Shown one piece after another: positions 61,676-62,664 of a stretch of DNA of 64,000 nucleotides (position 1 is the stretch's first letter; each line of letters opens with the position of its first letter). Under the pieces are notes generated by a model. The model did not search any database and was not told where the DNA came from. It saw nothing but the letters and a program-made list of their open reading frames with translations. Source of the stretch: Bacillus sp. DTU_2020_1000418_1_SI_GHA_SEK_038 (GTDB lineage Bacteria > Bacillota > Bacilli > Bacillales > Cytobacillaceae); NCBI RefSeq assembly GCF_032341175.1, contig NZ_CP135435.1:1364001-1428000 (forward strand), in the 5' to 3' direction. The position numbers and the translations under genes are program-made.

Positions 61676-61888
61676 TTATTTTTGATAACCGCCAAGTTGT
61701 TGTTCAGCCATTTGAACTAGGCGTTTTGTAATTTCTCCTCCAACAGATCCGTTGGCACGAGATGTAGTGTCAGCACCTAAGCTTACACCAAATTCAGTAG
61801 CAATTTCATACTTCATTTGGTCAAGTGCTTGTGCTACTCCTGGTACTAGTAATTGGTTTGAGGAATTGCTTCTTGTGTTGTTGTTCAT
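61676..61888 (-). CDS. alpha/beta-type small acid-soluble spore protein
   Basis: 70 residues. [20 protein letters not shown] followed by [20 protein letters not shown] and [11 protein letters not shown] shows both conserved SASP motifs; the EFGV site is the GPR protease cleavage point. It binds and protects spore DNA in the A-form and is degraded at germination. GAGGAG precedes the ATG by 11 bases. Driven by a sigma-G-type promoter about 130 bases upstream. Which paralogue (sspA-D) it represents cannot be told. Confidence 0.95.
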
Positions 61889-61922
61889 AATTGGTTCATC
61901 TCCTCATAGAATTTTGTTAGTA

Positions 61923-61987
61923 TGGTTGGGTTAGCCGGATTTGCACCGACACAAGATAAACTTGTTACCTCTAACTGGTTTAACCCA
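61923..61987 (-). other. compact tRNA-like cloverleaf in the SASP 5' leader
   Basis: Read on the minus strand from 61987: TGGGTTA / A / ACC-AGTTAGA-GGT / A / ACAAG-TTTAT-CTTGT / GTCGG-TGCAAAT-CCGGC / TAACCCA / A / CCA. This gives a perfect 7-bp acceptor stem, 3-bp D-like arm, 5-bp anticodon-like arm with 5-base loop, 5-bp T-like arm (one G-U) with 7-base loop, and a 3' discriminator A plus CCA. It lacks a variable loop and U8, so it is not a normal tRNA. It lies 34 bases before the SASP start. Confidence 0.6.
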
Positions 61988-62027
61988 TCGGTTAGTGGAA
62001 AGTTGTTGTGTGTCTGTGTTTACTCTA

Positions 62028-62056
62028 TATTATGGTGTTTTTCTAATCGCTTATTC
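62028..62056 (-). promoter_or_regulatory. sigma-G promoter of the SASP gene
   Basis: Minus strand -35 GAATA (62056-62052), 17-base spacer, -10 CATAATA (62034-62028), fitting the sigma-G pattern (GMATR, N17-18, CATNNTA). Initiation near 62020 gives a ~130-base leader. Confidence 0.75.
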
Positions 62057-62172: not shown

Positions 62173-62415
62173 ATGGCGATTTGTCCAATCTGTAATGGGT
62201 TCCAAGAAATAAAGACAAAATGCTCATCATGCGGTAATATTGTATACGACCAAGGCAGGATTATGGATTATTACGATGATTATAGTGCATACATGCCTAT
62301 AGATCTCATGAAATTGGAAAATGGCTATCCAACTGATTACATCAACAAGGAATGCCCGCATTTATTGAAATGCTTATCATGCGGAAATCAAGAGATAGCC
62401 TTAATAAAAGAATAA
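62173..62415 (+). CDS. 80-residue double zinc-ribbon-like protein
   Basis: CPICNGFQEIKTKCSSCG forms one four-Cys zinc ribbon, and CPHLLKCLSCGNQE supplies a second Cys set near the C-terminus. Between them lies an acidic Tyr-rich linker (MDYYDDYSAYMPIDLM). AGCGGGGG precedes the ATG. Divergent from the SASP gene. No function recognised. Confidence 0.7.
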   Translation: MAICPICNGFQEIKTKCSSCGNIVYDQGRIMDYYDDYSAYMPIDLMKLENGYPTDYINKECPHLLKCLSCGNQEIALIKE

Positions 62416-62478: not shown

Positions 62479-62664
62479 TTATTGGGCTGTATATGGCGGA
62501 TCCTCTTCAAAAAGATCTCTTGCTTCCTCAATATTAGTTGTTTCTTCTCTCATATGTACTGATCCGCCCGACATTCCTTCATTGATCATTCGGTCAATGT
62601 CTAAATAAACTTTGTCTCTTCCTTCATTATGAGAATCGTCTTTTACATTTTTTTTATCAGGCAT
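62479..62664 (-). CDS. 61-residue acidic hypothetical protein
   Basis: Starts MPDKKNVKDDSHNEGRDKVY; AAGGAGG is 9 bases upstream of this ATG, so the longer frame to 62733 is rejected. It contains YLDIDRMINEGMSGGSVHMR and ends EEARDLFEEDPPYTAQ. Small, hydrophilic, no cysteines. Its style fits small Bacillus sporulation or coat-associated proteins, but no name is assigned. Confidence 0.65.
   Translation of the reverse strand: MPDKKNVKDDSHNEGRDKVYLDIDRMINEGMSGGSVHMREETTNIEEARDLFEEDPPYTAQ

Follow-up and report, generated by a model that had tools for sequence, protein, structure and literature searches.

Comparison among relatives showed that a predicted tRNA-like element forms part of the leader of a SASP mRNA, that of the probable sspB locus, and that this element is widespread in the order. 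The copy analyzed here lies in a stretch of 64,000 nucleotides (the window, positions 1,364,001 to 1,428,000 of contig NZ_CP135435.1 of Bacillus sp. DTU_2020_1000418_1_SI_GHA_SEK_038). The features are given below in window coordinates, all on the minus strand; the 159 elements and the alignment A4 to which some of the lines refer are described in the following paragraphs.

62052..62056, minus strand: -35 box GAATA of a sigma-G-type promoter, read in the sequence (full pattern upstream of 115 of the 159 CCA-bearing elements)
62028..62034, minus strand: -10 box CATAATA of the sigma-G-type promoter (sequence and relatives)
61981..61994, minus strand: competing hairpin TAACC-GATG-GGTTA, outside the conserved element and complete in only 3 of the 159 elements
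61923..61987, minus strand: tRNA-like cloverleaf element of the SASP leader, 65 nt (fold in isolation, conservation and covariation)
61981..61987, minus strand: 5′ strand of the acceptor helix, TGGGTTA, pairing with TAACCCA (both-sided changes in 5 of 7 pairs in A4)
61967..61979, minus strand: D-arm ACC-AGTTAGA-GGT (both-sided changes in 3 of 3 pairs in A4; the loop covaries with T-loop position 55)
61951..61965, minus strand: equivalent of the anticodon arm, ACAAG-TTTAT-CTTGT, variable (both-sided changes in 5 of 5 pairs, 76.6% of cells paired in A4)
61934..61950, minus strand: T-arm GTCGG-TGCAAAT-CCGGC, stacked on the acceptor helix to give 12 bp (both-sided changes in 4 of 5 pairs)
61927..61933, minus strand: 3′ strand of the acceptor helix, TAACCCA, pairing with TGGGTTA
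61923..61926, minus strand: discriminator-like A73 and encoded CCA (N-CCA in 33 of 34 copies of the genus)
61900..61905, minus strand: Shine-Dalgarno sequence GAGGAG, read in the sequence
61676..61888, minus strand: alpha/beta-type SASP gene of 70 aa, probable sspB-locus orthologue (PF00269, 82.3 bits; synteny)

From 61987 to 61923 on the minus strand the element reads TGGGTTA-A-ACC(AGTTAGA)GGT-A-ACAAG(TTTAT)CTTGT-GTCGG(TGCAAAT)CCGGC-TAACCCA-A-CCA. The original prediction had placed a four-way cloverleaf on these 65 contiguous bases; its coordinates were exact, and the minimum-energy structure of the isolated 65 nt was precisely the cloverleaf drawn, with helices of 7, 3, 5 and 5 bp, a single G-U pair and a free energy of -20.0 kcal/mol (z of -2.6, equalled by 6 of 500 dinucleotide shuffles). 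The cloverleaf was not the minimum within the full 168-nt leader (-22.3 with it and -24.7 without it), nor was it when the leader began at the predicted transcript start (-22.3 and -23.9, respectively). The z of the entire leader was -0.49, so that single-sequence energy gave no support for a structure. The candidate reading of a chance fold was overturned by comparison. An element parser that demanded at least six acceptor and at least four T-stem pairs returned 186 non-overlapping elements, 159 of them followed by CCA. All 53 elements sampled from these 159 were more stable than their shuffles (z from -1.1 to -6.5), and the acceptor helix had a probability above 0.5 within the leader context in 84% of 67 sampled elements. 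The cloverleaf is real and beyond chance; the case is weak from one sequence, which is insufficient evidence, and the cloverleaf is accepted because of the comparison among relatives.

By DNA search, 34 of the 36 genomes of the genus, our own included, carry the leader, and a SASP frame was present downstream of all 34 leaders. The two other genomes (G013 and G035) gave covariance-model matches (L081 and L093), both again with a SASP downstream. The acceptor helix was followed by N-CCA in 33 of the 34 copies, a motif that the DNA search had not required; in L022 the CCA was displaced by one base. When RNAalifold was run on a MAFFT alignment alone of the genus leaders, the acceptor, D and T helices were predicted (13 pairs, two with both-sided changes), and the anticodon-like arm, which is of differing length, was left out. 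A first covariance model (R1) was built from the genus leaders and a second model (R2) was used for the wider surveys; both contain the CCA columns. In addition, a pattern scan of named genomes, which demanded TGGGTTA and RCCA, gave 68 stretches, all of which score 46.7-100.3 bits with the covariance model, from Cytobacillus, Mesobacillus, Neobacillus, Lederbergia, Heyndrickxia, Anoxybacillus, Rossellomorea, Robertmurraya, Aeribacillus and other genera. A SASP frame was located within 260 nt in 67 of the 68, the slice of L140 ending too early. The same scan also returned one record each titled Sporosarcina, Chryseobacterium and Paenibacillus.

Across the order, R2 matched 148 of 397 genomes at E≤1e-8, a count that errs both ways, as it includes tRNA-Gln matches and misses the genus f20 g100 (37-46 bits). 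Reading of 64 R2-matched loci revealed a SASP downstream in 63, and the remaining one, chosen deliberately, was a tRNA-Gln. With the covariance models, alpha/beta SASP genes preceded by the element were found in 24 family codes of the order, and weaker copies were present in two further codes, f12 and f19. Nineteen R2-negative genomes, from 20 among the 249 without a match, were also tested: in two of them (G210 and G203) a SASP domain was preceded at 40-46 nt by a weaker match, and no element match was observed in the other 17. In the phylum survey 7 of 398 genomes matched at E≤1e-8, with no strong copy outside the order, the sole outside match (G749) being a tRNA-Gln, as was the match in G273. 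This threshold overlooks weak copies (e.g., in G302, G273, G210 and G203), so that the absence beyond the order holds for strong copies.

The original prediction had named compensatory changes in the stems as the test of its fold, and such changes were found, in all four helices with A4 and in acceptor and T pairs with the tree. The alignments A2 to A4 were fitted to the structure of the covariance model, and A4 contains 67 rows, including one tRNA-Gln and three weak reverse-strand echoes. Both-sided changes were observed in 17 of the 20 pairs of A4, spread over all four helices, and 93.2% of its cells pair, compared with 77.6% after shuffling and at most 48.5% after sliding; the loosest helix was the anticodon-like one. 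A2 was weaker on its own, with both-sided changes in 9 of 20 pairs, 94.6% of cells paired (85.7% shuffled) and further pair types that were equalled by 25 of 500 shuffles; its acceptor is nearly invariant because the pattern scan fixed its letters. When parsimony was applied to a tree built from the coding sequences of 157 SASPs, double changes were estimated in 8 of the 12 acceptor and T pairs, namely 1-72 (2), 4-69 (5), 5-68 (5), 6-67 (7) and 7-66 (2) in the acceptor and 49-65 (8), 50-64 (10) and 51-63 (14) in the T-stem, these counts being estimates, given a tree derived from 150 bases and a parser that accepted only paired helices. The other four acceptor and T pairs had no double change, and changes to unpaired states occurred at 7-66 (10 times), 49-65 (7 times), 5-68 (once) and 50-64 (once). 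The related sequences that enter all these counts are not independent.

The sigma-G-type promoter GAATA-N17-CATAATA is present in the window as predicted, and its pattern recurs among the relatives: a full match to GNATR-N16..18-CATNNTA precedes 115 of the 159 CCA-bearing elements (1.2 expected from mononucleotide shuffles), with 14-73 nt between the -10 box and the element in these 115. A Shine-Dalgarno sequence was recognised for 145 of the 159, and in 139 of these 145 it lies 11-25 nt past the CCA. In the 5′ flank, which is conserved, 134 of the 159 elements have C at N-3 and 158 have G or A at N-2; a CA-N ahead of U1 is also found in three of four aligned tRNA-Gln genes.

SASPs form a protective coat on spore DNA, and sspB is among the classic genes of sporulation. 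The SASP gene of the window is adjoined by genes for a YheC/D-like ATP-grasp protein and a DUF5342 protein, and FumC is encoded nearby in 70 of the 94 loci searched (1.7-8 kb each), surroundings that we take to be the sspB neighbourhood of B. subtilis. In 84 of the 94 loci the vicinity of the SASP gene also includes a gene for an 80-aa, zinc-ribbon-like protein that has several CxxC motifs and no Pfam match (window 62173-62415, plus strand), and part of the syntenic loci have one for a 61-aa protein, likewise without Pfam match (62479-62664, minus strand). In the genus f44 g68, which we assume from its SspA- and SspB-like proteins to be B. subtilis-like (up to 97% identity to SspA of B. subtilis), the element was found upstream of two SspB-like genes (L335 and L336), and at four sspA-like genes that were read (L305, L306, L313 and L319) the leader was short and had no element, so that not every major SASP needs such a leader. 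Synteny and the SspB-like proteins indicate that this is probably the sspB locus. In our own genome the element is present at one of seven SASP genes, with no model match at E≤0.1 at the six other SASP loci. A repeat element was discarded as a candidate, the DNA search giving a single copy in this genome.

We then considered the kinship of the element with tRNA. In our own genome R1 gave 86.8 bits with the leader, followed by tRNA-Gln genes (43.1, 36.2, 33.4 and 31.4 bits) and, lower, by tRNA-Cys (29.8 bits) and tRNA-Trp (28.8 bits); as R1 was trained on mRNA leaders alone and its next matches are tRNA-Gln, the model recognises tRNA-Gln. The element and the tRNA-Gln(UUG) of this genome are alike in the UGGG start, the U1-A72 pair, 6 of the 7 acceptor pairs, the CCA and a T-arm of the type G(C/U)UGG..CCAGC, whereas the element has neither a variable loop nor a 7-base anticodon loop, mostly carries G55 and lies inside an mRNA. 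Its 7-bp acceptor, 5-bp T-stem, T-loop and CCA are those of a tRNA, and an elbow contact is indicated by covariation alone; the loop equivalent to that of the anticodon is 5 nt long in the window, and this part varies in length among relatives. The tRNA model of Rfam (RF00005) did not match the window element even at E 10, and no Rfam tRNA match at the curated score was obtained when six genus loci were scanned whole. In a narrow scan, L243, a relative with U55, passed the Rfam tRNA threshold of 29 bits (29.3 bits), and L111 remained below it (17.3 bits). ARAGORN detected no tRNA in the window or at any of 57 element loci to which it was applied.

After removal of L067 as a false parse, an AGG D-loop was counted in 29 of 36 elements with U55 (TTCAA, TTCGA), compared with 15 of 148 elements with G55, 13 of these 15 being one loop, AGGCAGT (Fisher p 2e-16, kinship ignored). 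There are thus signs that the letters of the D-loop and the T-loop vary jointly, as a tRNA elbow contact (G18-G19) would predict. The earlier suggestion of a minimal tRNA mimic, or a degenerate tRNA co-opted within a sigma-G-type SASP leader, is backed by the covariation.

The copies differ in number and length. Neobacillus-type (g18) and Mesobacillus-type (g14) SASP leaders carry two tRNA-like elements in tandem, of which the upstream (distal) copy has G55 and mostly RCCA, whereas the proximal copy lacks the CCA and combines U55 with what is mostly an AGG D-loop; the tandem loci are L096, L109-L111, L117, L119-L121, L126-L128 and L131 in g18, and L099, L100, L106, L124 and L125 in g14. In 15 elements, all from g18, the middle is at most 22 nt and leaves no room for a D-arm plus an anticodon arm. 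Long insertions at the position of the anticodon arm were seen in L079, L087, L097, L098, L101, L247, L249 and L269 (model matches of 109-160 nt), and the CCA is seemingly lost in L343 (f44 g85) and L347 (f12 g36), as read by eye. Most copies carry R73-CCA. The acceptor, the T-arm, the elbow and the RCCA are retained, the acceptor, T-arm and RCCA being nearly fixed, and the anticodon arm is the part given up.

Rfam holds models for yjdF, a riboswitch that binds azaaromatic ligands, and for the T-box. No Rfam family was found in the window at the gathering score, so that a T-box leader, with its specifier loop and antiterminator, was rejected as a candidate, and yjdF was absent both from that scan and from the weak matches of the element, its relatives and the genus loci. 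The weak Rfam matches other than tRNA (including miRNAs, a Twister-sister fragment that has the T-loop hairpin in common with the element and, on the opposite strand, a plastid ycf2 leader) were taken for noise. The yjdF riboswitch, called a tRNA-Lys homologue in PMC9142559, shares with the element the tRNA-like four-way fold and the D-loop/T-loop elbow, and it likewise precedes the Shine-Dalgarno sequence of an mRNA. Unlike yjdF, in which the junction is extended and purine-rich, the element has one base between the acceptor and the D-arm; its nearest tRNA is Gln, and it belongs to a SASP gene with a sigma-G-type promoter. Like the tRNA-like domain of tmRNA, it corresponds to a tRNA top half that includes a T-arm and a CCA, but it is not a separate RNA, and a tRNA/tmRNA scan gave no tmRNA in the window. 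Viral tRNA-like structures are classically found at the 3′ ends of viral RNAs, whereas the element is in the 5′ leader of a bacterial mRNA. Both are tRNA mimics within a long RNA (PMC5723415 for the viral ones). The pseudo-tRNA tRNAOther of Bacillus cereus is likewise a tRNA-like RNA of a bacillus, non-functional in translation, but it is encoded by a pseudo-tRNA gene flanking an island and not in a SASP leader (PMC3399842). The hairpin in the sigG leader treated in PMC5942855 is another matter. No account of a tRNA-like SASP leader was found among titles and opening lines of abstracts in the open literature, which covers few subscription journals. The tRNA-like mRNA leader is known as a kind from yjdF, and, as far as our searches go, the family, the gene, the RCCA and the tandem form are new.

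From a structure and a conservation that are established by comparison, we infer the function of the element. Its best explanation, which we hold only tentatively, would be a pre-tRNA mimic through which RNase P tailors the 5′ end of the SASP mRNA. The SASP gene would be transcribed by sigma-G in the forespore and its leader would adopt an L shape, with selection presumably acting on the pre-tRNA "top half", the portion read by RNase P. The enzyme would bind and most likely cut on the 5′ side of U1 (between 61988 and 61987), so that the single-stranded 5′ segment is lost. A stable helix would then bury the new 5′ end of the SASP mRNA, 17 nt ahead of the Shine-Dalgarno sequence. The buried end would shield the mRNA from 5′-to-3′ decay, with heavy translation in spore maturation.

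The substrate consensus of RNase P comprises, according to PMC10731613, a 12-bp acceptor/T stack, a T-loop and a 3′ RCCA, and the window element has all three. A kept acceptor, T-arm and RCCA together with a lax anticodon arm are a signature of RNase P, unlike that of a decoding tRNA, and therefore we hold RNase P to be the most likely partner; the 14-73 nt between the -10 box and the element, moreover, resemble a pre-tRNA 5′ leader. However, the enzyme prefers U at N-1 (PMC10731613), and only 36 of the 159 elements have U there (A in 96, C in 22, G in 5), the window carrying A at 61988. Furthermore, the CCA is shifted in L022, and neither L343 and L347 nor the downstream copies of the tandems have it; since about one third of B. 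subtilis pre-tRNAs have no encoded CCA (PMC10731613), RCCA is not strictly required. A slightly better alternative leader fold in this genome, the sspA-like genes that do without the element and the confinement of anticodon-arm loss to one genus code (g18) also speak against RNase P. Recruitment of the CCA enzyme and EF-Tu, originally proposed alongside RNase P, seems unlikely, as this CCA lies within the mRNA.

SASP is required in bulk, and the folded element could instead bind the ribosome directly and raise SASP translation, uncut, which we consider conceivable and rather doubtful. The yjdF leader, itself tRNA-like, binds the ribosome in its liganded form, and translation rose 2- to 6.3-fold with tRNAs positioned ahead of the Shine-Dalgarno sequence (PMC9142559); the end of our element lies 11-25 nt before the Shine-Dalgarno sequence in the 139 of 145 leaders noted above. 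In that work a change of ACCA cost little, yet RCCA is kept here, and arm lengths mattered for ribosome binding by yjdF, whereas what stands here at the position of the anticodon arm ranges from none to very long. A switch, in which a sensor of a metabolite, an ion, dehydration, temperature or a tRNA-binding protein (e.g., a synthetase or GatCAB) would act and an alternative fold would hide the ribosome site, appears improbable. The alternative leader folds of similar energy in this genome, a mean unpaired probability of 0.49 for the Shine-Dalgarno sequence (66 sampled leaders), the slightly better pairing of the whole element with its own ribosome-site region (-9.2 kcal/mol) than with permuted partners (-8.8) and the precedent of yjdF as a ligand-responsive tRNA-like leader (PMC9142559) are consistent with it. 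But the hairpin TAACC-GATG-GGTTA, originally put forward as the switching partner, exists in this genome and is not conserved: all five pairs, G-U allowed, are possible in 3 of the 159 elements and at least four in 20. In addition, the T-loop and the Shine-Dalgarno region show no co-adaptation (-5.39 against -5.33, sd 0.08), so that an off state of the yjdF type, in which the T-loop pairs with the Shine-Dalgarno sequence, was rejected, and U1-A72 is replaced by A-U in two relatives, contrary to a strict glutamine identity.

We give equally little credence to a plain 5′ stabiliser, i.e., a compact fold that would block exonuclease with an incidental tRNA shape and no RNase P: the sampled elements that all beat their shuffles (53 of 53) and the position of the element close downstream of the promoter agree with it, but the T-loop sequence, the elbow covariation and the RCCA are left unexplained. 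That the element is an inert tRNA pseudogene or a chance fold is hardly credible, since its conservation in 24 family codes is compensated, even though the full-leader z is -0.49 and both ARAGORN and Rfam report nothing there. Returning to RNase P, the fuller reading, which we put forward with still more reserve than RNase P itself, would be that of an undescribed class of mRNA-embedded tRNA mimics, widespread in the order, that sprang from tRNA-Gln, with the forespore RNase P both finishing and protecting the SASP mRNA and with a tandem form in Neobacillus and Mesobacillus (distal copy with RCCA, proximal copy without it).

Conservation of the element across many families of spore-forming bacilli points to a working, undescribed control element. 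A tRNA mimic kept across so many families would link the expression of a sporulation gene to the tRNA-processing or translation machinery, and it would illustrate the conversion of a tRNA into an mRNA control element.
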